Assembly: GCF_020103725.1 (NCBI RefSeq) | Contig: NZ_JAHXBG010000039.1 | Span: forward strand, 1-64,000 | DNA: 64,000 nt | Source of the DNA: Hyalangium gracile | Lineage (GTDB): Bacteria > Myxococcota > Myxococcia > Myxococcales > Myxococcaceae | Reading direction: 5' to 3' | Part shown: positions 7,902-53,864 of the stretch, piece after piece | Layout of the letters: every line of letters begins with the position of its first letter | Numbering within the stretch: the first letter of the stretch is position 1 | Translations under genes and position numbers: made by a program | Notes under the pieces: model-generated | The model's input: only the letters and a program-made list of their open reading frames with translations | What the model was told of the DNA's origin: nothing | The model's database searches: none

Positions 7902-7937
7902 AGCCCTGGAGCCTCGGGGACTCTGAGAGGATGTCTC

Positions 7938-9293
7938 ATGTCTCCGCGTCATCTGTCCGTCGTGGTTCTCCTCTGGGCACTGGCCACCGCTTGCAGCGGC
8001 ACGCGCGTGGTGCGCCTCGACACGGGCCAGGGCGAGCCCTTCACCCACATCCCCCGCACGGACGATGCCAGTCCAGTGGTTCTGGGGGAGGAAGAGTTCA
8101 CCCAGGCAATGGTGAAGGAGGTCCGGCGGCAGAGGCCCTCGTTCAACCCCGAGAAAGCCGCGCGAGAGTTGTTCGAGGTTCCCCCTCGCAGCGGCTGGTA
8201 CCGCTACACCCCGCGTGAAGGTGTTGTTCCTCTGGACGAGCCGCTCTCGGCTTCGCAGTGGGCCGAGGTGGCTGCACGAGTGACGCAGGAGTACCTGCGG
8301 TTCTGCGAGGCACTCGGGAAACCGGGCGATTGCCGGAAGGCGCTGATGAACAGCCCCGTCCTCACCGGGGATGGCCGCTATGCCCTCGGCATGTCCTTCG
8401 CTATCGAAGAGATCGTTCCCGAGATGATGCAGTCCTTCAAGGACATGGCCGATCCTGAGGCGATCAAGGCGTCACTCTACTGGACCATGGCGATCTACGC
8501 GGCGATGTGGCTGGCACCCGAGCCGGTGTTCTCCAAGGGGCTCGCGGCGGTCCTCACGGCCAGCTTCGTCTGCTACATCGGAGTGGACACGTTCTGGACG
8601 CTCATCCAGGGTTGGAGGCGGCTGGTGGAGGAGGTGGATCACGCCACCTCGTTCGCTGCGATCCGCGAGGCCGGGAAGAAGTATGGCAAAGTGATGGGGA
8701 AGAATGCGGCGAGGGCATTCGCCCTGCTGCTCACGGCTGCCATCGGCCAGACGGCAGCCAGCTTCTCAGCCAAGGTGCCCACCCTGCCCGGCTCGGCTCA
8801 AGCGTCAGCGGCGGGCGCGGCGCGGGTGGGAGTCCAGCTGACTGAGGTAGCGCAGGTGGAAGCAGTAGCCGTGACTGCTGATGCAGTCACCATCGCTCTT
8901 GCGCCCAACGCGGTCGCTTCAACGGCGGAAGGCTTGAGCGGTGCGGCATCAGGGCCGGTGGATGCAGAAGGCCCCTGGCACCACATCGCCTCTGACAAGT
9001 TCAGCACGTCGACAAACAACGGAGGGCCGTGGACGCCCAGGTATCAGGCACTCTTCGACAAGGCCGGAATGTCACTGGACGATGCAGCCAACAAGGTTCG
9101 TGTTCCGGGCCACAAGGGACCTCATCCGCAGGAGTACCACGAGGAGGTCTTCCGACGTTTGAGGGATGCAACGCTGGAGTGCCGTAGCATCCTGGAGTGC
9201 CGAGCGGCACTGACGAGCGAACTCCAACGACTGGGACGGCAGATCTCCACCCCGGGTACACGGCTCAACAAGCTTGTGACGCGGAACCCATGA
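7938..9293 (+). CDS. SitA-like lipoprotein toxin with C-terminal AHH nuclease domain
   Basis: A 451-residue protein with a lipoprotein signal (LWALATAC) followed by RVVRLDTGQG, a conserved middle region with hydrophobic segments (about residues 175-220 and 255-275), an Ala/Val-rich linker and a C-terminal nuclease-like domain from about 345 with WHHIASDKF, NNGGPWTP, KVRVPGHKGPHPQEYH. This matches AHH-type polymorphic toxins. Myxobacterial SitA toxins are lipoproteins exchanged between kin through TraAB outer-membrane exchange and neutralised by a downstream immunity gene; the layout here fits, most like the SitA5 group. Nuclease activity and delivery route are inferred. SD GAGAGG upstream of ATG 7938. 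Confidence 0.85.
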   Translation: MSPRHLSVVVLLWALATACSGTRVVRLDTGQGEPFTHIPRTDDASPVVLGEEEFTQAMVKEVRRQRPSFNPEKAARELFEVPPRSGWYRYTPREGVVPLDEPLSASQWAEVAARVTQEYLRFCEALGKPGDCRKALMNSPVLTGDGRYALGMSFAIEEIVPEMMQSFKDMADPEAIKASLYWTMAIYAAMWLAPEPVFSKGLAAVLTASFVCYIGVDTFWTLIQGWRRLVEEVDHATSFAAIREAGKKYGKVMGKNAARAFALLLTAAIGQTAASFSAKVPTLPGSAQASAAGAARVGVQLTEVAQVEAVAVTADAVTIALAPNAVASTAEGLSGAASGPVDAEGPWHHIASDKFSTSTNNGGPWTPRYQALFDKAGMSLDDAANKVRVPGHKGPHPQEYHEEVFRRLRDATLECRSILECRAALTSELQRLGRQISTPGTRLNKLVTRNP

Positions 9294-9308
9294 TTCAAGG
9301 AAGCGACG

Positions 9309-9878
9309 ATGGCGAAGCGGTACTTCGACCTCTCCGATGACGTTTACATTGCCGGCCGCTGGCATCTGGGCACACCCATCGATTCAGCAGGACAGGAGCA
9401 TGGGTCGTGGCTGTTCATGCAGGGAGAACCCGCTCGAGTCCAGGGACAGCTGCGGGTCCCCCTCTATCGTCCTGGCAGGCCGCTCGACTTTTCGCTCGCG
9501 GATGCTGGGGCCATTCCTGTTGTCCACGCCAGGGTCGCTTCGCTCCTGAAGCAATTGGCCCCTGGGGATATCCAGCTCTTCCCTGTCGAGATCGATGGAC
9601 AGACGGATCAATTCTGCCTCATGAATGTCACTCGTCTGGTGATGTGCATCGACGATGCCGCATCCGAGGAGGTGGAGTATTGGACTCCCGAGGATGGGCG
9701 TCCGGAGAAGACCGGCAAGTACCGAGCCGTGGCCGGTATGCGAATTGATCCCTCGAAGGTGGGGGATGCCAGGGTCTTCCGCCCTTGGGGATGGACCATC
9801 GCCCTCATCGTCGCCGAGGAGATCAAGGAAGCTCTAGATCACATCGGAGCCACAGGGACGAAGTTCAAGGAGGTGTAG
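9309..9878 (+). CDS. Imm11-family immunity protein (SitI-like)
   Basis: A 189-residue cytosolic protein, 15 nt downstream of the AHH toxin and co-oriented. The C-terminal half carries the family pattern of Imm11 (DUF1629): NVTRLVMCIDDA, EYWTPEDGRPEKTGKYR, GMRIDPSKVGDARVFRPWGW and a GATGTKF ending. Its expected role is to neutralise the neighbouring toxin in the producing or recipient cell. Cognate specificity is inferred from adjacency. Confidence 0.88.
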   Translation: MAKRYFDLSDDVYIAGRWHLGTPIDSAGQEHGSWLFMQGEPARVQGQLRVPLYRPGRPLDFSLADAGAIPVVHARVASLLKQLAPGDIQLFPVEIDGQTDQFCLMNVTRLVMCIDDAASEEVEYWTPEDGRPEKTGKYRAVAGMRIDPSKVGDARVFRPWGWTIALIVAEEIKEALDHIGATGTKFKEV

Positions 9879-9934
9879 TTCGTCGGGTCACTCACCGTGG
9901 GCACAAGCCACGCTGTGAGCTATTCTCCTCGTAT

Positions 9935-10870
9935 ATGATGGCCCTAGAACAGCTTCGCGTCCGCGTCAGCGATGACCTTGTGCTTGATGCAGGAGAGTGC
10001 AGAATAGTAGAGGGGTCACATGGTCTCGAACGAATCGTTCAGCCTCCACGGACCACCCTCTTCCACCAGCTTATCAATTACCTGAGGGCAAAACCTGCTC
10101 CGCAAGATCAACCTTCTGGAACCTTCCTTTCCCGAGAGGGAGTCGCAGCCGCTGCCGTGACTCTCCGATGGGGCTCCTACCTCTCGGTGCTTGCTGACCG
10201 CAACAAACCTATATGGCGCGAGGTGCGCTCCCCAGACGTCAGCCGCATAAGCGATGATGAGATGGCGCGGATTAACATCGAATCATCAGCGGCAATGGCG
10301 GAGTGGATTGACATCTTCCGCACGGATGCAGTGGGCTACGCGTCACTGGTGGACAAGGCCGTGAGTTACCTGCCCGTGCCAAGGAAGCTATCGAAGCCAA
10401 GCCATGTCCCCCCACAGGAGTTACTGCCCTCCACATTCACCAACATCCCTGACATCTTGAAAGCTCAAGCGCCCCAGTTTTTTTCATCGCCAATAAAGAG
10501 CGCCATCGAGCAACACCCGAGCAGGATGCTTGCGAATGCGCTGATCAATGCTGCTTGGCGTAACGGGCCCGTCGAGAGTCTCCATGCTGGAGATTTTCAC
10601 GGCTACCCACTCAATAAGTGCCGTGTAACGCCCAAAGATGTGCGGGAACTACTAGGTTTCGCGAGTGACAGAATGGCGCGTGGGATGGACGTGTGCCTCG
10701 TGCTGAAGAAGCCAAAGCACTCCTGGCCGCAGCAGGTCCTGTCATACCTAGCGCTCCAACCTTTCATTGTTCCTTCTGGTTGGTCACTGACGGAGTCGTC
10801 TCGCGAGATTCGCCTGATAGATCATCCCAGTGCTCGCGCAGTAGCCGATGCACGAAGAACTAAGCAGTGA
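9935..10870 (+). CDS. Unknown protein in the toxin island
   Basis: A 311-residue protein of no family I recognise. The start at ATG 9935 (MMALEQ...) was chosen over an upstream extension overlapping the immunity gene. Visible features: no signal peptide or membrane segment, a conserved-looking stretch NAAWRNGPVESLHAG, then a segment beginning CRVTPKDVRELLGFA, and a C-terminal WSLTESSREIRLIDHP. Base composition is clearly lower in GC than neighbours and uses rare codons such as ATA, so it was probably acquired horizontally. It could be an accessory factor, an orphan immunity protein or a remnant defence gene. Confidence 0.7.
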   Translation: MMALEQLRVRVSDDLVLDAGECRIVEGSHGLERIVQPPRTTLFHQLINYLRAKPAPQDQPSGTFLSREGVAAAAVTLRWGSYLSVLADRNKPIWREVRSPDVSRISDDEMARINIESSAAMAEWIDIFRTDAVGYASLVDKAVSYLPVPRKLSKPSHVPPQELLPSTFTNIPDILKAQAPQFFSSPIKSAIEQHPSRMLANALINAAWRNGPVESLHAGDFHGYPLNKCRVTPKDVRELLGFASDRMARGMDVCLVLKKPKHSWPQQVLSYLALQPFIVPSGWSLTESSREIRLIDHPSARAVADARRTKQ

Positions 10871-11231
10871 AGTCCTCGAATCACCGGCACGGCAGACATC
10901 CTCGGGTGCGAAGTTCTGCAACCGATCTGCTTAACCGGGTTCAGCATCAGCGCATAGGGTGGGTGCCGAGCGAGCAGAGGGGCGACACCTCGAACCAACT
11001 GGTCCTACAACCATACCAGTTCGCCCAGAGCGTGCCGGTGAGGGGTTCCCGCGAACTGGTTGAGTGAAGGAGAGCCGTGTGCCGAGGGAGAGCGGGACGA
11101 CCGGCGCGGGAGGACCCGTCAGAACGGGAATACCTGCGCCGAGACGAGGGCTCCGTGACCTGCGTTCCCAAGACGTAGGCCCGTACTCTCCGTCTAGTCA
11201 CTCGGGGGTTCGCGGACAGTCCATTAACCCG
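10871..11231. other. Noncoding, structured stretch of the accessory island
   Basis: No credible protein. The segment 10991-11059 has complementary blocks: CCAGTTCG at 11016-11023 can pair either with the upstream block around 10991-11002 (with a bulge) or with CGAACTGG at 11052-11059. Downstream, GAAGGAGAGCCGTGTGC (from 11067) resembles the 5' side of group II intron domain V, but the matching 3' strand ending in ACGGTTC is absent. It may be decayed retroelement RNA or an unrelated structured RNA. Confidence 0.35.
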
Positions 11232-11260
11232 CTTCAGGTAAGTCGCTTGAGCAGTCTCAG
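11232..11260 (+). repeat. Left terminal inverted repeat
   Basis: 29-bp arm starting CTTCAGGTAAGTCGCTT; pairs with 12041-12069 in inverted orientation, 27 of 29 identical. Lies about 200 bp upstream of the retropepsin-like gene. Confidence 0.75.
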
Positions 11261-11435
11261 AGGGAGGATGGGCAACCTCTCCAAGGAGACCGCTTTAATA
11301 CTTGTCGCTCAAGGATGTGCCTGAGTGGCTGGCGTGCCTCGCGCGGGTACCACCGATGGTACCACCCGGTACCAACGACTAGACTGGCGGACCTCAACAG
11401 GAGCGATCAGCTCACGGACGAAAAGCGGCCACGAG

Positions 11436-11963
11436 ATGACCATTCGCCACGAGATCGTTGAGGAGTTTACGTTTCGCAACGGGACCCGCGCATTCACCAC
11501 CGACAACGCAGTTATCGACACCGGCGCGCAGCGCACGATCATTACTCAGGCAGTTGTCGACGCACTTGAACTCGACGCGTGCGGCACAGTCGACGTGTCG
11601 AGTCCAGGGCATGAACCGATGATCGCCGTCGAATACCGGTGCCTCGTCGCATGGACGATGTACGAGGGCCAGGGGTTTGCGTCAACCCACGATGTGCTCT
11701 GTATCCCGGGAGCAGAGTAGGTGCTGATTGGTTTCGCCTTCGTGCGCGCTCACAAGTTGTCCGTGGACTTTCAGAACCAAGGACTGGTTGGCACCGCACC
11801 GAACAGCGCAGTGCCCCTGACGGGAGGTGGATACGCCCTCAACATGCCGCGCTCGTACCTGCTCAAGCTCAACAGCGAAAGGGCCAATGCTGCGAAACCG
11901 GGGGCGATCCTACGACCGCATCCTGCGTGGCGACTCGAGCTGCCTGCTCTCATCAAGAAGTAG
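11436..11963 (+). pseudogene. Retropepsin-like (clan AA) aspartic protease gene interrupted by in-frame TAG
   Basis: ATG 11436 opens a 94-codon stretch with the aspartic protease signature AVIDTGAQRTIIT; the frame meets TAG at 11718-11720 and continues in the same frame for 81 more residues beginning VLIGFAFVRAHKLSVDF. The downstream half carries the family's second motif (hydrophobic-LIG, then a DF/VDP-like strand), so the two halves make one ordinary domain of this small-protein family. No frameshift is needed. Either a recent nonsense mutation or readthrough would explain it; I favour a pseudogene because it sits in a decaying element. Confidence 0.7.
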
Positions 11964-41617: not shown

Positions 41618-41704
41618 GGAGGAGTGGCCGAGCGGCTGAAGGCAGCGGTCTTGAAAACCGCAGAGGGTGAAAGCTCTCCGTAGGTTCGAATCCTACCTCC
41701 TCCG
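41618..41704 (+). tRNA. tRNA-Ser (UGA anticodon)
   Basis: 87-nt class II tRNA: acceptor GGAGGAG/CTCCTCC, anticodon stem GCGGT/ACCGC with loop CTTGAAA (anticodon TGA), long variable arm, T-loop GTTCGAATC. CCA not encoded. Confidence 0.97.
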
Positions 41705-41747
41705 CACTTTGTCCTTGTTTTCTGCAGTTCTTTGACAGAGAAGAGTT

Positions 41748-41839
41748 GGAGAGATGGCCGAGAGGCTGAAGGCACAGGTTTGCTAAACCTGCATACTGGG
41801 TAACCGGTATCGAGGGTTCGAATCCCTCTCTCTCCGCCA
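41748..41839 (+). tRNA. tRNA-Ser (GCU anticodon)
   Basis: Class II tRNA: acceptor GGAGAGA/TCTCTCC, anticodon stem CAGGT/ACCTG with loop TTGCTAA (anticodon GCT), long variable arm, T-loop GTTCGAATC; the 3' CCA is encoded (to 41839). Confidence 0.97.
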
Positions 41840-41868
41840 CTTATCGTTGTAGCAGCGTTGGAAGACAC

Positions 41869-41945
41869 GCTCCCTTAGCTCAGCTGGATAGAGCGTCGGA
41901 CTACGAATCCGAAGGCCGGAGGTTCGAATCCTCCAGGGAGCGCCA
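41869..41945 (+). tRNA. tRNA-Arg (ACG anticodon)
   Basis: Acceptor GCTCCCT/AGGGAGC, D-arm GCTCAGCTGGATAGAGC, anticodon stem TCGGA/TCCGA with loop CTACGAA (anticodon ACG), T-loop GTTCGAATC, encoded CCA. The A34 of this tRNA is the classical bacterial target of TadA, whose gene follows 25 nt downstream. Confidence 0.97.
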
Positions 41946-41970
41946 CCTTCCCCCCACGCTGCTTCTCTCC

Positions 41971-42438
41971 ATGAGTGAAGACGACGCTTTCATGCAGCAG
42001 GCGCTTGCGCTGGCGCGGGAGGCGGCGGCACTCGGAGAGGTCCCTGTCGGCGCGGTGGCGGTGCACGATGGCAAGGTCATCGGCACTGGTTTCAACCGCC
42101 GCGAGGTGGACAAGAGTCCCCTGGCCCATGCGGAGCTGCTCGCGCTGGACGCGGCCTCCAAGGCCCTGGGCGCCTGGCGCCTGACGGGAGTCACCCTGTA
42201 CGTGACGCTGGAGCCGTGCGCCATGTGCGCCGGCGCGCTGGTCCAGAGCCGGGTGACGCGGCTGGTGTTCGGGACGATGGATCCCAAGGCGGGAGCGGTG
42301 GGCTCGCTCTACAACCTGGCCGAGGAGCCGAGGCACAACCACCGGCTCCAGGTGACGAGTGGCATCCTGGCGGACGAAAGTCGTCTGCTACTCAAGGGCT
42401 TCTTCGAGCGACTGCGCGAGAAGAAGCGTGAAAAGTGA
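41971..42438 (+). CDS. tadA: tRNA adenosine(34) deaminase TadA
   Basis: A 155-residue cytidine-deaminase-fold enzyme converting A34 to inosine in tRNA-Arg(ACG). Zinc and catalytic residues: HAE in PLAHAELLALD, and PCAMC in TLEPCAMCAGAL; VPVGAV and the C-terminal RL..FFERLR helix are typical. It stands between its substrate tRNA gene and two serine tRNA genes, so it is likely to be transcribed with them. Confidence 0.96.
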   Translation: MSEDDAFMQQALALAREAAALGEVPVGAVAVHDGKVIGTGFNRREVDKSPLAHAELLALDAASKALGAWRLTGVTLYVTLEPCAMCAGALVQSRVTRLVFGTMDPKAGAVGSLYNLAEEPRHNHRLQVTSGILADESRLLLKGFFERLREKKREK

Positions 42439-42443
42439 ATACT

Positions 42444-42530
42444 GGAGAGCTGGCCGAGTGGTCGAAGGCACCTGACTCGAAATCAGGCGTACCGGCAACG
42501 GTACCGTAGGTTCGAATCCTACGCTCTCCG
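42444..42530 (+). tRNA. tRNA-Ser (CGA anticodon)
   Basis: Class II tRNA: acceptor GGAGAGC/GCTCTCC, anticodon stem CCTGA/TCAGG with loop CTCGAAA (anticodon CGA), long variable arm, T-loop GTTCGAATC. CCA not encoded. Starts 6 nt after the tadA stop. Confidence 0.97.
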
Positions 42531-42546
42531 CTTGTAGCAGGTCCTT

Positions 42547-42633
42547 GGAGAGGTGGCCGAGCGGTTGAAGGCACACGCCTGGAACGCGTGCATACCTTAA
42601 CGGGTATCGTGGGTTCGAATCCCACCCTCTCCG
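42547..42633 (+). tRNA. tRNA-Ser (GGA anticodon)
   Basis: Class II tRNA: acceptor GGAGAGG/CCTCTCC, anticodon stem CACGC/GCGTG with loop CTGGAAC (anticodon GGA), long variable arm, T-loop GTTCGAATC. CCA not encoded. Completes the serine set TGA, GCT, CGA, GGA. Confidence 0.97.
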
Positions 42634-42649
42634 TAGGTGTTATTTTTGT

Positions 42650-42729
42650 GGTCGGGACAACGTGGGGACGTGAACCCCGCCAGGTCCGGAAGGAAGCAAC
42701 GGTAGCGCACCTTCGCGTGTGTCCCGGCC
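42650..42729 (+). ncRNA. ffs: Small SRP RNA (4.5S)
   Basis: The conserved SRP domain IV hairpin is present (GTGAACCCCGCCAGGTCCGG then GAAGGAAGCAACGGTAGC, from about 42669), closed by a terminal stem GGTCGGGACA (42650-42659) / TGTCCCGGCC (42720-42729). It binds Ffh and targets membrane proteins to the translocon. The exact ends may extend a few bases. Confidence 0.95.
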
Positions 42730-42742
42730 GTTTCTCTCGTTG

Positions 42743-44433: not shown

Positions 44434-44751
44434 TCAGCGGACCTCGGTGGGGGCCGGCAGCTGCTCGAGCTTCGCGATGCGCTGCTTGAGCTCGGCGAGC
44501 TCGGCGAGGCGGTCCGGCCCGGCGTTGGAGGTGAAGTCCGGGTTGCGGATCCACCAGTCCATGCCCATCTCGCGCGCCTTGTCCACCGAGGCGACCATCA
44601 GCCGGATCTGGATGGTGAGCAGCTCGATGTCCACGAGCTTCACCTTGATGTCGCCCGCGATGATGATCCCCTTGTCGAGGACCCGCTCGAGGATGTCGGC
44701 CAGGTTGCTGTGCCCGGTGGAGTTGGCAACCCTTCGAGAGCGCTCGATCAT
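44434..44751 (-). CDS. Gas vesicle GvpA-family paralogue (GvpJ/GvpM-like)
   Basis: A 105-residue member of the GvpA superfamily: LADILERVLDKGIIIAGDIKVKLVDIELLTIQIRLMVAS is the family core, followed by DKAREMGMDWW and a charged C-terminal helix (ELAELKQRIAKLEQL) that GvpA lacks. GvpJ and GvpM paralogues are minor components required to nucleate vesicles. It ends the minus-strand arm and overlaps the gvpK stop by ATGA. Confidence 0.9.
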   Translation of the reverse strand: MIERSRRVANSTGHSNLADILERVLDKGIIIAGDIKVKLVDIELLTIQIRLMVASVDKAREMGMDWWIRNPDFTSNAGPDRLAELAELKQRIAKLEQLPAPTEVR

Positions 44752-45113
44752 ACCTCACCTCGCGGAGCGCTCTCGTCGAACAGGTTTCCCAGGGGCCCCA
44801 GATCGAGGTTGAGGCTCTCGACACCGAAGTGCTTCATCAGCTGCTGCATGTGCTCCTCGAGCCGCATGAGCGTCGTGCCCAGGCGCTCGACCTGCGCCTC
44901 GCTCAGGCTGCCGCCCTCGATGCGCCGCAGGGCCTGCTTCTCCATCAGCCGGCGGACGAACTCCACGAGCGAGAGGACCAGCTGGGTCAGCCCTCGCTCG
45001 ATCTTGTCCGGGGTGACGTTGATGCGGCTCGGCAGCCTGGCCTGGGGGGGCTCGGCGGACTCCGCGAACGCCTCCAGCTCTTCCGCGCTGCCTCGAATCT
45101 CTCCGTAGTTCAT
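44748..45113 (-). CDS. gvpK: Gas vesicle protein GvpK
   Basis: A 121-residue GvpK-family protein: RINVTPDKIERGLTQLVLSLVEFVRRLMEKQALRRIEGG is the diagnostic region, followed by LSEAQVERLGTTLMRLEEHM and LNLDLGPLGNL. GvpK is an essential minor assembly protein. ATG 45113 overlaps the preceding stop (ATGA), and its own stop overlaps the next start, so the arm is tightly coupled. Confidence 0.93.
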   Translation of the reverse strand: MNYGEIRGSAEELEAFAESAEPPQARLPSRINVTPDKIERGLTQLVLSLVEFVRRLMEKQALRRIEGGSLSEAQVERLGTTLMRLEEHMQQLMKHFGVESLNLDLGPLGNLFDESAPRGEV

Positions 45114-45394
45114 GTTCCTTCTCCCTCGAGCTGGGTGGTGGGGAGCCGCGGAGTGGGCGCCTCGTGCTCCCACTTGCGCATCGTCTCCACCGAGGTGACG
45201 ACGACGTTGAGCCCCAGGTAGATCAGGTCCACATCCGCGATGGAGATGAGGACATCCCCCGCGATCACGACGCCTTTGTTGAGCACCCGGTCCAGCGTCT
45301 CGCACAGGCTGACGCGCTGGTGGCGAGAGGCCGGGCTCCGCCGCGCGCTGACGGGACGCGCGGGGCGTGCTCTCGACTGAGGGCTAAGCGGCAT
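45110..45394 (-). CDS. Gas vesicle GvpA-family paralogue
   Basis: A 94-residue protein with a 28-residue basic, Arg/Pro/Ser-rich N-terminal extension before the GvpA-type core SLCETLDRVLNKGVVIAGDVLISIADVDLIYLGLNVVVTSVETM. The extension is unusual for structural GvpA and points to a GvpJ/M/S-type minor protein. ATG 45394 lies 11 nt inside the end of gvpG; a longer frame to 45457 is unlikely. Confidence 0.88.
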   Translation of the reverse strand: MPLSPQSRARPARPVSARRSPASRHQRVSLCETLDRVLNKGVVIAGDVLISIADVDLIYLGLNVVVTSVETMRKWEHEAPTPRLPTTQLEGEGT

Positions 45395-45623
45395 GGCTGG
45401 CCTGGCCCTTCTTGTACTCCTCGATCTGCTCGAGCCGCTCCACCAGCTCGGCCTCACGCTTCGCGAAGTCCTCCTCGGAGACCGCCCCGGCCTCGAGCCG
45501 GGCGTAGAGCTCCATGAGCTCGGTCTTCACCGCCTCGTCGTCGAAGATCTCCTTCTCGGCGCGGTCGGCGATCTCCTCGAAGACACGAACCAGTCCCCGG
45601 AATGGCATCGAAAGAATTCCCAT
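45384..45623 (-). CDS. gvpG: Gas vesicle protein GvpG
   Basis: A 79-residue GvpG-like protein: MPFRGLVRVFEEIADRAEKE followed by DDEAVKTELMELYARLEAGAVSEEDFAKREAELVERL, all helical. GvpG is a small accessory protein in vesicle assembly, usually located beside GvpF/L as here (12 nt from the GvpF/L stop). Confidence 0.88.
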   Translation of the reverse strand: MGILSMPFRGLVRVFEEIADRAEKEIFDDEAVKTELMELYARLEAGAVSEEDFAKREAELVERLEQIEEYKKGQASHAA

Positions 45624-45635
45624 GACGTGCCTACC

Positions 45636-46409
45636 TCAGGCAGCAACCTGCTGCAGATCGAGATCGATGAAGTTGAAGGGCGCCCACGGGCCGTTGAAGT
45701 CGAAGACGTAGTGGGCGGGGAAGGTGTTGGCGACCTCGTAGACCCGCGCCTCGAACTTCTGAAGGTCCTCGCGCTTCACCAGAAAGGCGACGTCCATCAC
45801 CGTCTGCTCGTTCCTGGGCGGGTTCACCTTCGACTCGACGACGCTGGCCTGGAACAGCTCGAGCACGCGCTCCGTCTGCGCCTCGCGCTCCTTGTTCAAC
45901 CGATCCTCGAACATCCGCCCGAGCTCGATCTTCTCGGGCTGGGTGGGCTCCGCTCCGCCTCCGAAGAGCCTGTCCCTCATGGCGGCCAGCTCGGGATCGA
46001 GGCTCGCGATGTGCTCGAAGATGTTGTCCACGCCCCACTTGATCTTGAGCCCCATCTCCACCGAGCCCTGTACCCGCTCGAGCTGAGCCCGGATCTCCGT
46101 GCGGTTGCGGCGCAGCAGCCGGACGATGTCCTTCTCGCTCCTGGCGACGTGGCCGAAGGTCATCGGGATGACGGTCACCGTCTTCATGACTTCACGGATG
46201 ACCTTGTTGTGAGGCTCCAGGTTCTTGCGCAGCGGGAGGATCTTCCCGCTCACGGCGTAGTCCGAGACGACCGCCGCCAGCGAGTCCACGCGTACCGTGT
46301 AGACGCGCCCCGGCTTTCCCTCGTGCGGCAGCCCGATCTCTCCGAACTCTACCGTCTCGGCCTCGGGGGCCGGGATGACTCCATACAGATAACGTCCCGT
46401 CACGGACAT
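45636..46409 (-). CDS. Gas vesicle protein GvpF/GvpL (copy 1)
   Basis: A 257-residue GvpF/L family protein: RYLYGVIPAPEAETVEF at the N-terminus, AAVVSDYAVSGK, VIPMTFGHVARSEKDIVRLL, a helical region with EMGLKIKWGVDNIF, and the C-terminal FPAHYVFDFNGPWAPFNFIDL. GvpF binds GvpA subunits before incorporation. One of three GvpF/L paralogues in the cluster. Confidence 0.95.
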   Translation of the reverse strand: MSVTGRYLYGVIPAPEAETVEFGEIGLPHEGKPGRVYTVRVDSLAAVVSDYAVSGKILPLRKNLEPHNKVIREVMKTVTVIPMTFGHVARSEKDIVRLLRRNRTEIRAQLERVQGSVEMGLKIKWGVDNIFEHIASLDPELAAMRDRLFGGGAEPTQPEKIELGRMFEDRLNKEREAQTERVLELFQASVVESKVNPPRNEQTVMDVAFLVKREDLQKFEARVYEVANTFPAHYVFDFNGPWAPFNFIDLDLQQVAA

Positions 46410-46805: not shown

Positions 46806-47813
46806 CTAGGCCTCCTGGGGGGCGGCGAGGGGGATGGGGGTGGGCACGGCCTGCAGCTCCGTGCGGGGCCCGCGGCGGCGCGCGTACCGGGCCACGAGCT
46901 CCTCCACGGGGTTCGCTCCCGGGCCCGTCTTGATGGCGAAGCCGCTGAGCACGTCGCCGCACACGTCCATGAACATCGGCTCATCCGCGTAGGCGTGGGC
47001 CCTCGTCTGGGCGAGCACCCGGGCGATCATGATGCAGGCGCGCAGGCTCGGGCTCTGCTTGGTGAGGGCCATCCCGCGCAGCGCGCGGACGATGTCGACG
47101 ATCACCTCCGCCTCCTCGAGCGGAATTCCAGAGCGGGACTGGGTGATGCGCGCCTCGGTGTCGCGGTCGCAGTAGTCCACCTTGATGGTGATGAGCCGGT
47201 CCATCAGCGCGTCCTGCGTGCGGTGTACGCCCGCGTACTCCTCGGGGTTGGAGGTGAAGATGGCGCGGAACTCGGGGTGGACCTCGAGGTACTCGTCGCC
47301 CTGGGGGCCGCGCATGGGCAGCGCCAGGAGTCGCTCCTCGAGCACCGAGAGCAGGCCGTTGTTCGCCTCGGGCCGCGAGCGGGTGAACTCGTCGTAGACC
47401 AGCGTGTCGCCCGTCTTGCAGGCCTGGGTGAGCCGGTTGTCGGCCCAGAGGGTGGTCGTCTGCTCCTCGGTCCTCACCACCGAGTGGATGAAGTTGTCGA
47501 CGACCTTGCTCTTGCGGAACCCGTAGTCGCTGCCGATGAGATCGCTCGAGCCCCGCGCGTCGTCCCCGTGCATCAGGGTCATCGTGCGGCCGCGGAGCGC
47601 CGCCACATGGAGCGCCAGCGTCGTCTTCCCGGTGCCCGCCGGCCCCGAGAAGTGGACGGGATATCCCGCCTGGAGATAGGCCAGCGCCCGGTCCGCGATG
47701 CGCCTCACGTGGGGCGTCAGGACGAAGTTCTCGCTGGCCTCCGCCTGCATGGTGTCTGGGGTCCGAACCTCGGCCAGCGCCGCCTGGCCACTCCTCTTTC
47801 CTTCCCTGCTCAT
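46806..47813 (-). CDS. gvpN: Gas vesicle protein GvpN (AAA/MoxR-like ATPase)
   Basis: A 335-residue MoxR-like ATPase: Walker A GPAGTGKTTLALHVA, a GvpN-typical segment GDDARGSSDLIGSDYGF, LVYDEFTRSRPEANN (Walker B), FRAIFTSNPEEYAGVHRTQDAL (sensor 1) and MDRLITI. GvpN enhances vesicle maturation. A C-terminal extension (ARYARRRGPRTELQ) follows. Located directly after the GvpC candidate, as in cyanobacterial gvpA-gvpC-gvpN order. Confidence 0.95.
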   Translation of the reverse strand: MSREGKRSGQAALAEVRTPDTMQAEASENFVLTPHVRRIADRALAYLQAGYPVHFSGPAGTGKTTLALHVAALRGRTMTLMHGDDARGSSDLIGSDYGFRKSKVVDNFIHSVVRTEEQTTTLWADNRLTQACKTGDTLVYDEFTRSRPEANNGLLSVLEERLLALPMRGPQGDEYLEVHPEFRAIFTSNPEEYAGVHRTQDALMDRLITIKVDYCDRDTEARITQSRSGIPLEEAEVIVDIVRALRGMALTKQSPSLRACIMIARVLAQTRAHAYADEPMFMDVCGDVLSGFAIKTGPGANPVEELVARYARRRGPRTELQAVPTPIPLAAPQEA

Positions 47814-47910: not shown

Positions 47911-48252
47911 CTACCCGGCGCGGAAAGACTCGCTCGCGCTCCGGAATTCGTGGTTCATCTCCTGCAGATCCTCGGCCCGCTCCTTGCGCTTCATCTCGAA
48001 GCGATCCAGCAGGGAGTGGACGCGGGAGCGCAGCCTGCTCATGAACTGGCGCCGGCGATCCGCCTCGCGCGCGGCCCGCTCGCGGCGCTGAGCCTCGGCA
48101 TCGTTCTGGTGCTTCCGAAAGCCCGCGAGCATCGTCGAGGTGTGCTTGCAGGAGTTGCTGATGAACTCGGAGCGGCGCTGGGCCTTCTCATCGAGCTGGT
48201 GCCTGAGGGCACTCATTGCCTCGGGGGTGAAGCTATTGAAATGCGCGGTCAT
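47911..48252 (-). CDS. Candidate GvpC, vesicle-strengthening protein
   Basis: A 113-residue, highly charged helical protein between gvpA and gvpN. It contains two imperfect repeats of a FxS-x(n)-hydrophobic-x-charged pattern: one beginning EFISNSCKHTSTMLAGF, one beginning QFMSRLRSRVHSLLDRF, then AEDLQEMNHEF. Cyanobacterial GvpC has 33-residue helical repeats with comparable FLS/ELQ signatures, and occupies the same position. ATG 48252 follows AGAGGAGAAAG. Assigned by position and composition, not strong sequence identity. Confidence 0.55.
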   Translation of the reverse strand: MTAHFNSFTPEAMSALRHQLDEKAQRRSEFISNSCKHTSTMLAGFRKHQNDAEAQRRERAAREADRRRQFMSRLRSRVHSLLDRFEMKRKERAEDLQEMNHEFRSASESFRAG

Positions 48253-48399
48253 GGGCTTTCTCCTCTCTCGTCTCTGGGGTGCTCGAGCCTCCTGGCCCTG
48301 AAGGGCCGACAGGCTTTCACTTCCTACAAACCGCTCTCCCGGGGCGGTAAACGACTCACGCCCCGGGAAGCGGAACTCACTCATCAACATCCACCTTCA

Positions 48400-48621
48400 T
48401 CACGGGGTGGGGGCCGCCGCGGTCGACGTCAGGCCGATGGCCTCGGCGTACTTGAGGTACGTCTCGACCGAGGCCACGACCACGCGAGCCTCGATGGAGA
48501 GCAGCTCGATGCCGACGAGCGACACCTTCGCCCAGGCATCGATCACGATGCCCTTGTCCAGGATGCGATCAACCACTTCCGCCAGGCTCGAGGAGTCCGT
48601 CGACTTCATCACCTTTGCCAT
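48400..48621 (-). CDS. gvpA: Gas vesicle major shell protein GvpA
   Basis: A 73-residue GvpA with the nearly invariant core [39 protein letters not shown] and [13 protein letters not shown]. It forms the ribbed protein wall of the gas vesicle. ATG 48621 is chosen because GGAGG lies 8 nt upstream; ATG 48627 would be too close to it. First gene of the minus arm, with a sigma-54 promoter about 50 nt upstream. Confidence 0.97.
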
Positions 48622-48670
48622 TGTCATTACCTCCGTATTTGGGCCGCTTCGTGCGGCTTGCTGATGTGTC

Positions 48671-48688
48671 TAGCAAGGCGGGTGCCAC
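48671..48688 (-). promoter_or_regulatory. Sigma-54 promoter of the gvpA arm
   Basis: Minus strand reads GTGGCACCCGCCTTGCTA: TGGCAC-N5-TTGCT with exactly 10 nt between GG (-24) and GC (-12), matching the RpoN consensus. It lies 49 bp upstream of gvpA, giving a leader of about 40 nt. Confidence 0.85.
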
Positions 48689-48696
48689 GGTTTCGG

Positions 48697-48809
48697 AGGC
48701 GCCTGGCGCGCTCGAATGCACGTGCTTTCGTACGGTGGATCTCCAAGAGGATCACGAGCGCTCCCTTCGAGAGGCGCCTGCCCTATCGATATATGCAAGC
48801 TTTCGCATG
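48697..48809. promoter_or_regulatory. 75-bp-spaced direct repeat, probable enhancer-binding sites
   Basis: Two modules share AGGCGCCT (48697-48704 and 48772-48779), ATGCA (48716, 48793) and GCTTTCG (48724-48730, 48799-48805), with AGGCGCCT and GCTTTCG both 75 bp apart. Module 1 also has a near-perfect palindrome CGAATGCACGTGCTTTCG (48713-48730). They lie between two divergent sigma-54 promoters, where activator sites for an enhancer-binding protein are expected. Confidence 0.6.
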
Positions 48810-49008
48810 GCGCTTCCGCGGGCAGGAATCGGCTTCCCTTTGGAGCAACCAGAAGGGCGTTGCGAAATCCCACGCCGTCGAGGAAGACCGCAACACACCC
48901 GAGCCCAGCCTGCCGTTGCGGCCCCGTGGCCCCTCGCGGACAGCCCCTGCCCCCGGGGAAAGGGCTTCCCCTTTGATCATCTACCCCTCTCCCACCTCAT
49001 GAGCGGCG
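48810..49008. other. Rest of the divergent gvp intergenic region
   Basis: No gene. Contains short purine-rich and pyrimidine-rich tracts and two GTTGCG blocks (48859, 48914) but no further clear repeat. It forms the spacer between the enhancer-like repeats and the plus-strand promoter. Confidence 0.4.
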
Positions 49009-49026
49009 CTGGCGCGGGGCTTGCTA
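49009..49026 (+). promoter_or_regulatory. Sigma-54 promoter of the gvpH arm
   Basis: Plus strand reads CTGGCGCGGGGCTTGCTA: TGGCGC-N5-TTGCT with GG and GC 10 nt apart. The predicted start is near 49036, leaving a very short leader with AGGAGGA before ATG 49049. Confidence 0.82.
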
Positions 49027-49048
49027 TTCCTTTCAGCGAGGAGGAAGC

Positions 49049-49561
49049 ATGGCACCCAAACGAAAACCAGAGTCGGGCCCGATCGATGTTGGACTAGGTG
49101 GGATGTTCCGCAGCCTCGGCGGCTTCATGGAGCTGCTCTCCGAGCTGGCCGAGAAGAGCGGCGGAGAGTTCACTCACTCCGAGGAGCTCGGCGACGACAA
49201 GAAAGGCGTCAAGGCGGTGTATGGCTTCTCCGTTCGCGTAGGCGGCGGAGGCAAGCCAATCGTCGAGAAGTTCGGGAACGTCCAGGACGATGGCAAGGGC
49301 CCCGTGGTGGAAGAGGTCCGCGAGCCCATGGTGGATCAGTTCGACGAGGGGGAGCACCTGCTCATCGTCGCCGAGCTGCCCGGGGTGGACACCCAGGACA
49401 TCCACTTCGAGCTCAAGGAGGATGTGCTCCTGCTGAGCGCCACTCGAGGTGAGCGCAAATACCGCAAGGAAGTGCTGCTCTCGGCGCCCGTCCAGGCCCA
49501 GGCGGCCACCTCTTCCTATCGCAACGGTGTCTTCGAGCTGAAGCTGCCGAAGGCTCGATAG
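49049..49561 (+). CDS. gvpH: GvpH-like Hsp20-family gas vesicle protein
   Basis: A 170-residue protein. The N-terminal half (MFRSLGGFMELLSELAEKSG, then KAVYGFSVRVGGGGKP) matches GvpH proteins; the C-terminal half is an alpha-crystallin-like domain (EGEHLLIVAELPGVDTQDIH and VLLLSATRGERKYRKEVLL). GvpH is thought to act as a small heat-shock-type chaperone for vesicle proteins. First gene of the plus arm. Confidence 0.9.
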   Translation: MAPKRKPESGPIDVGLGGMFRSLGGFMELLSELAEKSGGEFTHSEELGDDKKGVKAVYGFSVRVGGGGKPIVEKFGNVQDDGKGPVVEEVREPMVDQFDEGEHLLIVAELPGVDTQDIHFELKEDVLLLSATRGERKYRKEVLLSAPVQAQAATSSYRNGVFELKLPKAR

Positions 49562-49585
49562 CCTTTGGAGCCCCAGGGGGTAGCC

Positions 49586-50254
49586 ATGCAAGCCACGAAG
49601 TCCGGACAATTAGGTCTCTATGCCGTGGTAGCTGCCGATCAGGCGCTCGCCGCGCGGGCCCGGTTGCGAGGCCTTCGGTGGGTCACCCGAGGCCCCCTCA
49701 CGGCCATCGTTGGCAAGCCCGAGAGCGAGAGCCAGCGTGCCGCGCTGCGGCACGATCGTATCGTCGGGAAGGCACTCGCCGCCTGTGGCGCGGTGGTGCC
49801 TTTCCGGCTGGGCGTCGTGCTCCGCTCCCAGGAGGAGCTGCACCGCGTGCTGACCGCCAACGAGGAAGTGCTGTGCCAGTACCTCGCACGCTTCCATGGC
49901 CGGGTCGAGATGGCGCTCAAGGTGAAACTACCAGAGCTCCTCGCTGGCGGGCTCTCTCAGCTCCCCTTCAGCCTCGAGGGGCTCCGCGCGCTGGCTCCCG
50001 ACAGCCAGTCCCGACGGGAGTCCATGAAGCGGACCCTGACCGGGCAGATGTTCGACGGCTGTTACCTGATCTCGCGTCGGGACGTGGACAGCTTCTGGGC
50101 GGCCACCGACCAGATCCGGCAGGCGTTTCCCTCGCTCCTCATGCTCGGCAGCGGCCCCTGGGCGCCCTACAGCTTCTGTGATTTCACCCTCGCCCCCGCC
50201 GCGGGCGACAGGGTCCTCCTCGATGAGCACAAGGAGAGAGCGTGCGCACGCTGA
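49586..50254 (+). CDS. Gas vesicle protein GvpF/GvpL (copy 2)
   Basis: A 222-residue GvpF/L family protein: GLYAVVAADQALAARARLRG at the N-terminus, VVPFRLGVVLRSQEELHRVL, EMALKVKLPE, a central helical region and C-terminal FPSLLMLGSGPWAPYSFCDF. ATG 49586 has CAGGGGG upstream and avoids a short extension. Shorter than the other two copies, suggesting a specialised role. Confidence 0.92.
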   Translation: MQATKSGQLGLYAVVAADQALAARARLRGLRWVTRGPLTAIVGKPESESQRAALRHDRIVGKALAACGAVVPFRLGVVLRSQEELHRVLTANEEVLCQYLARFHGRVEMALKVKLPELLAGGLSQLPFSLEGLRALAPDSQSRRESMKRTLTGQMFDGCYLISRRDVDSFWAATDQIRQAFPSLLMLGSGPWAPYSFCDFTLAPAAGDRVLLDEHKERACAR

Positions 50255-50850
50255 TCCACGTTCCCATCCTCCACTCGGAGGTAGACCTCGGCAGCCTGGC
50301 GGAAGAGCTGCGCCGGCGCTTCCAGGAGTCCTTCGGGGCCAGCGCGTGGTCCAAGCGCGTGGCCTCGGTGGACTCCATGTGGAACAGCCTCCGGACGACG
50401 CTCCTCGAGCTGCCCATCCCCTGGGAGAAGACCCGGCTCTACCAGGACGGGCTCCCCGTCTGCGACCGGGAGCGCGACATCGTCCAGGTGCTGGCGTCCA
50501 AGGGCAGCCAGAACCACCGCCTCCTGCTGGAGCTGATGGAGCGGGGCGCCACGCTCATGGGCACCGAGAGCCCGGAGCTGCTGGTGAAGGAATACCGCCG
50601 CGGGCAGCAGCTGGTGGAGGCCGCCCGGCAGAGCCCCTCGGAGACGGATGTCCGGAACTTCAAGAACGAGGGCGAGGCGCTGCTGCGCGAGCGGGACAGG
50701 TTCATCGCCCGGCGCATCGGCTCGACGCTCCGGGATGACGAGACGGGGCTGCTCTTCCTCGGGCTGCTCCACCGGGTGGATGACTTCCTCGACCCGAACA
50801 TCGCGTTTCGCCACCTGATTCACCACCTCCCGCGCAGGGAAGCTTCCTGA
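50242..50850 (+). CDS. Unassigned protein of the gas vesicle arm
   Basis: A 202-residue soluble protein starting at GTG 50242 (AAGGAGAG upstream), overlapping the GvpF/L copy 2 stop by 13 nt. It begins RTLIHVPILHSEVDLGSLA and contains helical stretches with WNSLRTTLLELPIPW, DRERDIVQVLASKGSQN, LIRRGQQL-like segments and a C-terminal LGLLHRVDDFLDPNIAF. I do not recognise a family. Tight coupling implies a role in gas vesicle formation or its control. Confidence 0.82.
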   Translation: MRTLIHVPILHSEVDLGSLAEELRRRFQESFGASAWSKRVASVDSMWNSLRTTLLELPIPWEKTRLYQDGLPVCDRERDIVQVLASKGSQNHRLLLELMERGATLMGTESPELLVKEYRRGQQLVEAARQSPSETDVRNFKNEGEALLRERDRFIARRIGSTLRDDETGLLFLGLLHRVDDFLDPNIAFRHLIHHLPRREAS

Positions 50851-50874: not shown

Positions 50875-53028
50875 ATGACGGCTGAAGCCAAGAAGAGAGA
50901 GAGCCAGGACGCGGGCACGTCACTCCGAGTCGCGGAGGCCCTGGCCAAGGATGTAGGTCGAGGCGTCGCGCGGCTCGACCCCAAGGACCTGGCCCTCCTG
51001 GGCGCGGAGGTCGGTGACATCATCCTGATCACGGGCGAGCGCACCACGGTCGCCAAGGCCATGCCCGCCTTCAGCGACATGCGAGGCAAGGGGCTGCTGC
51101 AGATCGACGGCATCACCCGCGGCAACGCCAAGGTCGGGCTCGACCAGCGGGTGAGGATCTCGAAGGTCCCCCATGCGCCCGCGACGAAGATCGTCCTGCG
51201 TCCGGTAGGCGGCGCGCCGTCCCTCAAGCGCAACAGCGACTCGCGCTATGTCGTGCGGCTGCTCGAGGGCCTGCCGGTCATCGCGGGGGACCGGGTGCGA
51301 GTCACCCTGTTCGGCTCGCGCTATCAGGACTTCGAGGTCGTCAGCACCTCTCCCAGGGAGGGGTGCGCCGTCGTCCATGCCCAGACGCAGATCACGCTCG
51401 AGGAGCAGACGGAGCGGGGCACCAAGTCGACGGGCATCTCCTATGAGGACGTGGGAGGCCTGCGCAAGGAGATCCGGCGCGTGCGAGAGATGATCGAGCT
51501 GCCGCTGCGCTATCCGCAGATCTTCGAGCGGCTCGGGATCGACGCGCCGAAGGGCGTGCTCCTCTATGGCCCTCCGGGGACCGGCAAGACGCTGCTGGCC
51601 CGCGCCGTGGCCCACGAGACGGAGGCGGCCTTCATCACCGTGAGCGGCCCGGAGGTCATCCACAAGTTCTACGGCGAGAGCGAGGCCAAGCTCCGGGAGA
51701 TCTTCGAGCAGGCCCGCAAGAAGTCTCCCTGCATCATCTTCCTGGACGAGCTGGACGCCATCGCCCCCAAGCGGGAGAACGTGCAGGGCGAGGTGGAGAA
51801 GCGCGTCGTCGCCCAGCTCCTGGCGCTGATGGACGGCCTCGAGTCCCGCGGGCAGATCATCGTCATCGGCGCCACCAACCTGCCCAACTCCCTGGACCCG
51901 GCGCTGCGGCGCCCCGGCCGCTTCGATCGCGAGATCGAGATTGGCATCCCGGACGCCATCTCTCGCAAGGAGATCCTGGAGATCCACACCCGCGGCATGC
52001 CGCTGGCGGAGGACGTGAACCTCGAGCGGCTGGCGGCCATCACCCACGCCTTCGTGGGCGCGGACCTGGAGGCGCTGTGCCGCGAGGCGGCCATGACCAC
52101 GCTCCGCGGCGTCATGCCGGAGATCGACTTCGCCAACAAGGAGCTGCCCTACGAGGTGCTGCTCTCGCTCAAGGTGACGATGGATCACTTCCTCTCGGCG
52201 CTGGCCGAGGTCGAGCCCTCGGGCGTACGCGAGGTCTTCGTGGAGGTGCCCGACGTCAAGTGGGACCAGGTGGGCGGGCTGGACTCCATCAAGCGCGAGC
52301 TGCGTGAGGCCGTCGAGTGGCCGCTCCAGTACGCGGACCTGTTCAGCCACGCGGGCATCCGCCCGGCGAAGGGCATCCTGCTCTACGGGCCGCCCGGGAC
52401 GGGCAAGACGCTGCTGGCCAAGGCCGTGGCGTCGCAGAGCGGCGTCAACTTCATCACCGTCAAGGGGCCCGCGCTGATCTCCAAGTACGTGGGCGAGAGC
52501 GAGCGGGCGGTCCGCGAGGTCTTCAAGAAGGCGCGCCAGGCGGTGCCCTGCATCCTCTTCTTCGACGAGATCGACTCGCTGGCCCCCGTGCGCGAAGCGG
52601 AGGCGGGGGACTCCGGCGTCTCGCAGCGGGTGATCAGCCAGCTGCTCACCGAGATGGATGGCGTCGAGGAGCTCAAGGGCGTGCTCGTCATCGCCGCGAC
52701 GAACCGCCGGGACATGCTGGATCCCGCGCTGCTGCGCCCGGGCCGCTTCGATCTCCACCTGGAGGTGCCGAACCCGGACACGGCAGGACGGGGGAGGATC
52801 TTCGAGGTCCACCTCAAGGGCAAGCCCGTGGCCCCCGACGTCGACATCGCCGAGCTGGCGAAGCAGACGCAGGGGTGCTCGGGCGCGGAGATCGAGATGG
52901 TGTGTCACCGCGCCGCCCTGCTGGCCGTGCGTGAGTTCATCTCGGCTCACGGCAAGGAGGGCTCGCCCTCGAAGATGAAGATCACCCGCGAGAAGTTCGA
53001 GGCCGCGATCGCCGAGATCGCTCGCTGA
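50875..53028 (+). CDS. CDC48/VAT-type double AAA ATPase
   Basis: A 717-residue AAA+ protein with an N-terminal double-psi-barrel-like region (LRVAEALAKDVGRGVARLDP, ISKVPHAPA) and two full AAA domains: Walker A GPPGTGKT at about residues 231 and 503, Walker B IIFLDELDAI and ILFFDEIDSL, and second-region-of-homology motifs NSLDPALRRPGRFDREIEIG and LDPALLRPGRFDLHLEV. This is the archaeal VAT/eukaryotic p97 architecture, which unfolds and remodels proteins. Inside the gvp arm it probably handles vesicle protein assembly or disassembly. Confidence 0.93.
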   Translation: MTAEAKKRESQDAGTSLRVAEALAKDVGRGVARLDPKDLALLGAEVGDIILITGERTTVAKAMPAFSDMRGKGLLQIDGITRGNAKVGLDQRVRISKVPHAPATKIVLRPVGGAPSLKRNSDSRYVVRLLEGLPVIAGDRVRVTLFGSRYQDFEVVSTSPREGCAVVHAQTQITLEEQTERGTKSTGISYEDVGGLRKEIRRVREMIELPLRYPQIFERLGIDAPKGVLLYGPPGTGKTLLARAVAHETEAAFITVSGPEVIHKFYGESEAKLREIFEQARKKSPCIIFLDELDAIAPKRENVQGEVEKRVVAQLLALMDGLESRGQIIVIGATNLPNSLDPALRRPGRFDREIEIGIPDAISRKEILEIHTRGMPLAEDVNLERLAAITHAFVGADLEALCREAAMTTLRGVMPEIDFANKELPYEVLLSLKVTMDHFLSALAEVEPSGVREVFVEVPDVKWDQVGGLDSIKRELREAVEWPLQYADLFSHAGIRPAKGILLYGPPGTGKTLLAKAVASQSGVNFITVKGPALISKYVGESERAVREVFKKARQAVPCILFFDEIDSLAPVREAEAGDSGVSQRVISQLLTEMDGVEELKGVLVIAATNRRDMLDPALLRPGRFDLHLEVPNPDTAGRGRIFEVHLKGKPVAPDVDIAELAKQTQGCSGAEIEMVCHRAALLAVREFISAHGKEGSPSKMKITREKFEAAIAEIAR

Positions 53029-53042
53029 GCAGGAGCAATTCC

Positions 53043-53864
53043 ATGGAAACCGAAGCCCGTGGTGAGCACGTATTGTACCTCTATGGGGTCATCCCCGCGG
53101 GGCAGCCCATTCCCGTGAGCGAAGCCGCCGCGCTCCAGGCCGTCCCCTTCTCCAACCTCGTCGCGCTCGTCGAGCCCGTCTCCGCGACCGAGTTCTCCTC
53201 CCAGGCGCTCAAGGAGAAGCTCCAGCGCATCGACTGGGTCTCCTTGCTCGCGCAGAAGCACACCGCCGTGCTGGACGAGGTCATGCAGCATGGCTCCGTC
53301 GTCCCGGCCCGCCTCTGCACGCTCTTCAGCAGCGCCCAGATGCTCCAGAGCTCGCTCGTCCAGAACGAGGAGCGGTTCCAGGACAAGCTGGAGCGGGTCC
53401 GGGATCGCCAGGAGTGGGGCTTCAAGGTCTTCTGCGACAAGGCGAAGCTCGAGGCCGCCCTCGCCGTGAGCGAGCCCGAGCTGCGGCAGCTCGAGGCCGC
53501 CGCGGCCAGGGCGAGCCCCGGCCAGGCGTATGTCCTCCGCAAGAAGCGCGAGGCCCGCCTGGCGGAGCTCTGCCAGCTGCGGCGCGATGAGGTCTCCGAC
53601 GAGGTGCTCGACGTCCTGGAGGCCCAGGCCGCGGACACCCGAATGCGGCCGCTCCTGTCGGAGGCCACGAGCGGACGAAGCGAGGCCATGACGCTCAATG
53701 TCGCCATTCTCATTGACAACACCGGCGCATCGGCGCTGATTGCCGCCGCGCAGGAGCTGGCCTCGCTCTTCGGCGACGAGGGCTTCATCTTCGATCCGAC
53801 GGGCCCCTGGCCGCCGTACAGCTTCTGCAGTGACGAGGAGCCGGACGAGTTCGAAGAGGTGTAG
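53043..53864 (+). CDS. Gas vesicle protein GvpF/GvpL (copy 3)
   Basis: A 273-residue GvpF/L family protein: VLYLYGVIPAGQPIPVSEA, ALVEPVSATEFSSQALKEKL, GSVVPARLCTLFSSAQMLQ, WGFKVFCDKAKLEAAL and C-terminal FIFDPTGPWPPYSFCSDEEPDE. It lies 14 nt after the CDC48-like gene and ends the plus arm. Length is like typical GvpL. Confidence 0.93.
   Translation: METEARGEHVLYLYGVIPAGQPIPVSEAAALQAVPFSNLVALVEPVSATEFSSQALKEKLQRIDWVSLLAQKHTAVLDEVMQHGSVVPARLCTLFSSAQMLQSSLVQNEERFQDKLERVRDRQEWGFKVFCDKAKLEAALAVSEPELRQLEAAAARASPGQAYVLRKKREARLAELCQLRRDEVSDEVLDVLEAQAADTRMRPLLSEATSGRSEAMTLNVAILIDNTGASALIAAAQELASLFGDEGFIFDPTGPWPPYSFCSDEEPDEFEEV

Follow-up and report, generated by a model that had tools for sequence, protein, structure and literature searches.

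Predicted outward-facing sigma-54 promoters on both arms of a divergent gas-vesicle cluster in the myxobacterium Hyalangium gracile

Introduction

The 64,000-nucleotide stretch of the Hyalangium gracile genome analyzed here (the window) contains a gas-vesicle cluster whose two arms diverge from a single 427-bp gap (48622-49048), which raises the question of how each arm is switched on. The original prediction placed a sigma-54 promoter of the -24/-12 type before the first gene of each arm and went on to suggest that gas vesicles may be a developmental trait. Sigma-54 promoters and the polymerase that reads them need an enhancer-binding protein (EBP), and the question of an activator is part of the same problem. 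The explanation that best accommodates our data, at a probability of about 0.83, is that both elements are genuine outward sigma-54 promoters, one per arm, inherited with the gas-vesicle module, whose cognate EBP is absent from the contig and which would be either driven in trans or silent.

Organization of the gas-vesicle cluster

The gap is bordered by the starts of gvpA at 48621 (-) and gvpH at 49049 (+). The genes of the two arms, all of them open reading frames, are as follows.

48400..48621 (-), arm A: gvpA, gas vesicle shell protein (PF00741, 1.2e-16)
47911..48390 (-), arm A: 159-aa protein without a Pfam family, adjoining gvpA in several relatives
46806..47813 (-), arm A: GvpN-like AAA_5 ATPase
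45636..46409 (-), arm A: GvpF/L family protein (PF06386)
45110..45457 (-), arm A: GvpA-like protein (PF00741 match at 45194-45310)
44748..45041 (-), arm A: GvpK (PF05121; frame start chosen by us)
44434..44751 (-), arm A: second GvpA-like protein (PF00741 match at 44590-44706)
49049..49561 (+), arm H: gvpH, first gene of the arm, weakly Hsp20-like, with relatives found by a GvpH search
49565..50254 (+), arm H: GvpF/L family protein (PF06386)
50242..50850 (+), arm H: 202-aa protein, kept adjoining the CDC48 gene
50875..53028 (+), arm H: CDC48-type AAA ATPase (PF00004, PF02359)
53043..53864 (+), arm H: second GvpF/L family protein of this arm (PF06386)

We take the AAA_5 ATPase to be GvpN and the GvpA-like proteins at 45110..45457 and 44434..44751 to be of the GvpJ and GvpS type, respectively; gene letters that go beyond the Pfam families are presumptive throughout. 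The name gvpH is that of the original prediction, and the match of its product to PF00011 (9.7e-4) falls narrowly below the cut-off. Elsewhere in the window, a small SRP RNA and five tRNA genes lie in a row at 41618-42737 (+).

Two sigma-54 elements in the gap

Each end of the gap carries one element pointing outward, from which the transcription starts can be predicted.

48672..48687 (-): sigma-54 -24/-12 element of the gvpA arm, TGGCACCCGCCTTGCT, exact consensus with 0 mismatches
49010..49025 (+): sigma-54 -24/-12 element of the gvpH arm, TGGCGCGGGGCTTGCT, 1 mismatch
48661 (-): predicted transcription start of the gvpA arm, from motif geometry (12 nt after the C of the -12)
49036 (+): predicted transcription start of the gvpH arm

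In both elements the distance from GG to GC is exactly 10 nt, and the gvpH-arm site has a G in the fifth position. Both lie outside called ORFs at promoter distance upstream, with 51 nt between the -12 and the ATG at gvpA and 24 nt at gvpH. Both elements lie where the original prediction put them, with the spacing it gave. The predicted gvpH leader would be 13 nt long and still include the AGGAGG ribosome site.

The sites were scored with a matrix whose weights follow the published consensus (maximum 19.0), giving 18.8 for gvpA and 14.9 for gvpH. Over the 127,970 positions of the window, scores of at least 13 occur only at 48687 (-) with 18.8, 29912 (-) with 18.8, 49010 (+) with 14.9 and 21970 (+) with 14.6. 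The two elements are therefore among the three best matches, that of gvpH being the third. The bare motif with up to two mismatches shows no enrichment in the window (19 found, 23.0 expected), so the weight lies on how good and how well placed the two sites are, not on how many matches there are.

The motif classes of the two sites differ in their frequency across the 11.7-Mb genome. The exact motif TGGCAC-N5-TTGCW, the class of the gvpA site, occurs 18 times compared with 5 for a reversed control. Thirteen of the 18 sites lie outside called ORFs and at most 200 nt upstream of an ORF on the same strand, against 16 of 400 random window positions, with ORFs called by a simple gene caller of our own. 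This placement suggests that most exact matches in the genome are likely to be real promoters. The gvpH-site class, TGGCGC-N5-TTGCW, is not enriched (19 versus 23 in the reversed control), so that the gvpH site, not convincing from sequence alone, must be judged by conservation. No sigma-70-like site was found in 48400-49300, a weak test given that merely 0.1 is expected. The host encodes sigma-54, with one rpoN match in the genome (PF04552 on C6, 1.3e-64).

Conservation of the elements among related clusters

Relatives were collected from a GvpH scan of public genomes (7 loci), a GvpA search of 145 genomes of the order (30 with a match, our own included), a GvpH search of 147 genomes of the class (36 with a match, more than half of them weak) and a GvpA search of 195 genomes of the phylum (29 with a match at 1e-15). 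These genome sets overlap, and the relatives are non-independent samples. Loci in which the gvpA start was not located (L032, L034, L037-L040), a doubtful one (L036) and distant loci that have no site within 200 nt (L027-L031, L033, L035) are excluded from the counts.

Seventeen gvpA copies encode a GvpA at least 90% identical to that of the window (L012, L071, L073, L074, L075, L076, L077, L079, L007 with three, L008, L009, L010, L115, L116 and L121; L013, L014 and L114 coincide with L076, L073 and L074). In 16 of them a sigma-54 site scoring at least 10 is present, with 44-70 nt between the -12 and the ATG. L077 has no site, and those of L075 (10.4) and L010 (10.2) are marginal. Most g34 copies score 15.2, compared with the exact consensus match of the window. 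The sites are kept at a similar distance although the flanks have diverged. This speaks against the view that both elements are functionless chance matches and that the true promoters belong to another class, as do the exact-motif calibration and the EBP carried by the clusters of five relatives (see below). In favor of chance, the 12 clusters from the same family (L015-L026, GvpA 75-79% identical) have no site of at least 6.5 within 300 nt of gvpA. We regard this explanation as highly improbable.

Nine of these 12 clusters have gvpH about 4 kb upstream in the same orientation; when the whole loci were scanned, no site of at least 11 turned up near gvpH in these nine. The same scan of L045-L053 gave hits of at least 11 in L047, L049 and L053, none of them near the gvpH start, and no hit in L054. 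Since the sites are present in clusters with a GvpA at least 90% identical and absent near gvpA in the same-family clusters at 75-79%, the promoters follow the gas-vesicle lineage and not the host family. Copies sharing 96% identity with the window's GvpA occur in another family and in two genomes from outside the class; set against the 75-79% seen in the 12 clusters of the host's own family, this suggests horizontal transfer of the cluster. Six other genomes of the genus have no close GvpA (best 47%).

For arm H, a site scoring at least 12 is found before six of the seven gvpH-led operons: L071 (14.9), L078 (14.9), L004 (14.7, 91 nt), L005 (12.9), L006 (12.8) and L120 (14.6), the seventh being L074 (G027), which has none. 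The site of G028 (TGGCGCGGTTCTTGCT) lies 37 nt from the start and that of G029 (TGGCGCGGCGATTGCT; its gvpH is L078) 28 nt, while in G163 the distance is about 50 nt from an inferred start. Operons not led by gvpH were left out of the seven, namely L010 (gvpH behind gvpK) and L007-L009 (gvpH after gvpA), none of the four having a site a short way upstream of gvpH. Since L006 and L115 are apparently one contig, its gvpH and gvpA were each counted once.

These data bear on the proposal that, of the two elements, the one at gvpA alone is a genuine sigma-54 promoter, with a chance match at gvpH and another promoter for arm H. Besides the genome-wide frequency of the gvpH-site class and the lack of a site before gvpH in G027, a precedent in Serratia sp. 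ATCC 39006 agrees with it: according to the passages of the two papers on which we draw, the operon that contains gvrA and gvpH carries potential -10/-30 boxes, and an rpoN mutation leaves it unchanged (PMC4982088, PMC11778176). Against it stand the rank of the gvpH element in the window, its position 24 nt from the ATG and the sites before gvpH in G028, G029, L004, L005, L006 and G163; the lack of a sigma-70-like site says little. We consider this proposal distinctly unlikely. By their quality, position and conservation, and in a host with rpoN, both elements would behave as sigma-54 promoters, as originally predicted.

Across homologous gaps the outcome is thus split: where GvpA is 90% identical or more, the sites are conserved, including beyond the class, and near gvpA in the 12 same-family loci they are absent. 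The head-to-head layout itself is not common to the relatives. Among the eight that have both arms on one contig, the arms are in tandem in seven (G027, G028, G172, L007-L010) and convergent in one (G163), so that the window alone has them head to head. In G163 about 7 kb separate the end of arm A from the CDC48 gene, and in G029 the arms are on separate contigs.

Two further observations concern copies of these promoters. Extra gvpA copies are found off the contig of the main cluster in G027, G028 and G029 (L012, L073, L075, L076, L077), with a site of at least 10 in four of the five (L075 marginal, L077 none). In L115, the promoters of gvpA at 2178 (-) and gvpH at 11032 (-) have 15 of 16 bases in common, spacer included (TGGCATACGCGTTGCA, GGGCATACGCGTTGCA), as if one had been copied from the other.

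Leader and upstream region of gvpA

The predicted gvpA leader contains a potential stem-loop at +5 to +19.

48643..48657 (-): stem-loop GCCGC-ACGAA-GCGGC

Its CGC/GCG core starts at +5 to +9 in all 17 gvpA leaders (the window and the 16 copies with a site), compared with 2 of 16 other sigma-54 leaders and with 9.8% of random 30-mers, in which it was allowed anywhere. This near-constant distance supports the predicted gvpA start. The first outer pair of the stem is T-A in eight leaders, C-G in seven and broken in two. The first 30 nt of the leaders fold with a mean of -10.7 kcal/mol, against -7.1 kcal/mol for the 16 other sigma-54 leaders (Mann-Whitney p 0.012, among related sequences). Folded as far as the start codon, ten leaders mostly fail to outdo their shuffles, and covariation on a MAFFT alignment of the leaders is weak. 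With such mixed statistics from energies, covariation and outer pair, we do not take the stem-loop for a proven RNA element and treat it as a secondary feature; it may act in mRNA stability or as a DNA operator.

The gap was also examined for a shared enhancer and yielded no convincing upstream activator site. It contains the repeat GAGGCGCCTG twice, at 48696 and 48771 (period 75 bp), which was discarded as a candidate, as 64 of 300 shuffles reach it. Among the relatives, an 18-bp GAAA..TCC element is situated 34 or 45 nt upstream of the -26 base at gvpA in L012, L071, L073, L074, L076 and L079, two spacings that differ by about one helical turn, and is absent from L075 and L077. It is a possible activator site of these six g34 promoters; since it was picked by eye from an alignment, and the matrix used to score it came from those six sites, the analysis is exploratory and its scoring circular. 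In the window its best score is 5.9, compared with at least 19.3 in the six relatives.

A second exact match in the window

Besides the gvpA element, the window has one further exact match, at 29912 (-), which precedes an RNA-like stretch with an intrinsic terminator, which folds better than all of 200 shuffles (0 of 200 fold as well; z -3.0).

29912-29745 (-): exact sigma-54 site followed by a probable small RNA (sRNA) of 130 nt, the sRNA at 29886-29750

Of 142 genomes of the order, 96 (our own included) match the sRNA, and a sigma-54 site scoring at least 16.8 is located upstream of it in all 11 relatives examined, which were the best matches (L101-L111). This site serves as an unplanned positive control for our sigma-54 matches. 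In many genomes of genus g19 the sRNA is present in two or three neighboring copies.

The sRNA is possibly Pxr of Myxococcus xanthus, which, in the sections of the two reports used here, has a predicted sigma-54 promoter and adjoins the EBP gene pxrR (PMC5568312, PMC5684412). Unlike at M. xanthus pxr, no match to an EBP was found on the contig of the window. Like the gas-vesicle arms, Pxr is a myxobacterial unit transcribed from a predicted sigma-54 promoter; unlike them, it is an sRNA gene and has no relation to gas vesicles.

The activator

Five relatives of the same phylum (G027, G028, G029, G163 and G172) have an NtrC-type EBP within the gas-vesicle cluster, beside a second receiver protein. 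Pfam searches of three of these EBPs identified receiver and sigma-54 activation domains, with a Fis-type helix-turn-helix in two of the three. The EBPs of G027, G028 and G029 are 78-80% identical. A histidine kinase adjoins the EBP in G028 and G029, as identified by Pfam, and in G163 and G172, as identified by similarity. L004, L005 and L007-L009 have no such EBP in the stretch examined, which in L004 and L005 ends soon after the arm H genes. In L010, a 1438-aa protein combining Ser/Thr kinase, GAF and sigma-54 activator parts is encoded at 7410-11723 (+), downstream of gvpH.

The situation in the window is different. Searches with the EBP, kinase and receiver protein of the relatives by tblastn over the whole 95.6-kb contig gave no match at 1e-3, and no PF00158 domain is found on this contig (C39) among the candidates scored. 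In the genome as a whole, PF00158 has at least 79 matches with 150 of 195 candidates scored, the weakest few being probably other AAA proteins, which leaves about 70 other EBPs. With 150 of 381 candidates scored, matches to the EBP of G028 that span receiver and AAA+ domains are at most 40-47% identical, and matches to parts of its AAA+ domain reach 53%. The genome thus appears to have the promoters and to lack their cognate activator as far as searched.

Without a nearby EBP, the promoters may idle. They could even be intact relics, in a cluster that came without its activator or lost it and is not expressed in this host. The dependence of sigma-54 promoters on an EBP, the lack of matches to EBP, kinase and receiver on the contig, the lack of a close cognate among the candidates scored in the genome and the absence of a close GvpA from the six other genomes of the genus are all consistent with this. 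On the other side, the gvpA element is an exact consensus match where most g34 copies score 15.2, the gvp genes have kept open frames, and any of the roughly 70 other EBPs could act on them. We judge the relic explanation to be unlikely.

Discussion

Sigma-54 control of gvpA is already known from Serratia sp. ATCC 39006, the one enterobacterium to which the literature found on sigma-54 control of gas vesicles is confined, as far as the portions consulted extend. There, as described in parts of PMC4982088, a sigma-54 site precedes the mapped start of gvpA1, and gvpA1 depends on GvrA, an NtrC-family protein. In an rpoN mutant, gas vesicles are lost and gvpA1-gvpY transcription is reduced while gvrA-gvrC is unchanged, according to a passage of PMC11778176 citing Hill 2021. 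The window is reminiscent of this system in the sigma-54 site before the shell-gene operon, and the relatives' clusters in their NtrC-family activator, though none is found in the cluster of the window. It differs in that its arms diverge from one gap, that it has no cluster activator and that it belongs to another phylum. Moreover, where the second Serratia operon (gvrA, gvpH) is rpoN-independent with potential sigma-70 boxes, in the text cited above, the window has sigma-54-like sites on both arms. A search of titles and abstract openings retrieved no paper on gas-vesicle regulation in myxobacteria, Myxococcota or Anaeromyxobacter.

The five relatives with a cluster-borne EBP provide the closest comparison. 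They have the same gene arms over the stretches compared, a GvpA 92-98% identical and a gvpA promoter similarly placed in all but one copy; unlike the window, their clusters include an EBP and a receiver gene. That the EBP is located inside the gas-vesicle cluster suggests that the promoters are ancestral to the module and are not in themselves a mark of the host developmental network. The suggestion that gas vesicles are a developmental trait is left without support, having nothing behind it beyond the general link between sigma-54 and myxobacterial development, and we reject developmental control on these grounds, the EBP of the five relatives being an NtrC-type response regulator in the gas-vesicle cluster.

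In the mechanism that we favor, sigma-54 RNA polymerase would be held as a closed complex on each -24/-12 element, awaiting an EBP. An NtrC-type EBP, driven by ATP and acting from upstream, would open both promoters, so that the shell genes of the gvpA arm and the assembly genes of the gvpH arm would be switched on together. The promoters would have arrived with the gas-vesicle module, which in the relatives also has the EBP, the receiver and mostly the kinase. With this regulatory trio missing from the contig, presumably by loss, activation would come in trans from one of the roughly 70 EBPs of the genome, or the cluster would be silent.

A more detailed scenario can be offered tentatively, and we would sooner doubt it than rely on it: a horizontally moved module lost the kinase-activator-receiver trio while its sigma-54 core promoters stayed, and these came under a resident activator of a myxobacterium with a large genome, with the head-to-head arms sharing one upstream region and the leader stem-loop adding mRNA stabilization or further control.

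For gas-vesicle biology, the cluster would represent a second, distant lineage with sigma-54-like sites at both arms, in which five relatives encode an NtrC-type activator within the cluster, so that the input signal can be tested. The promoters and regulators could supply parts for gas-vesicle production in Gram-negative hosts, and H. gracile itself may be a case of core promoters that have outlived their activator.
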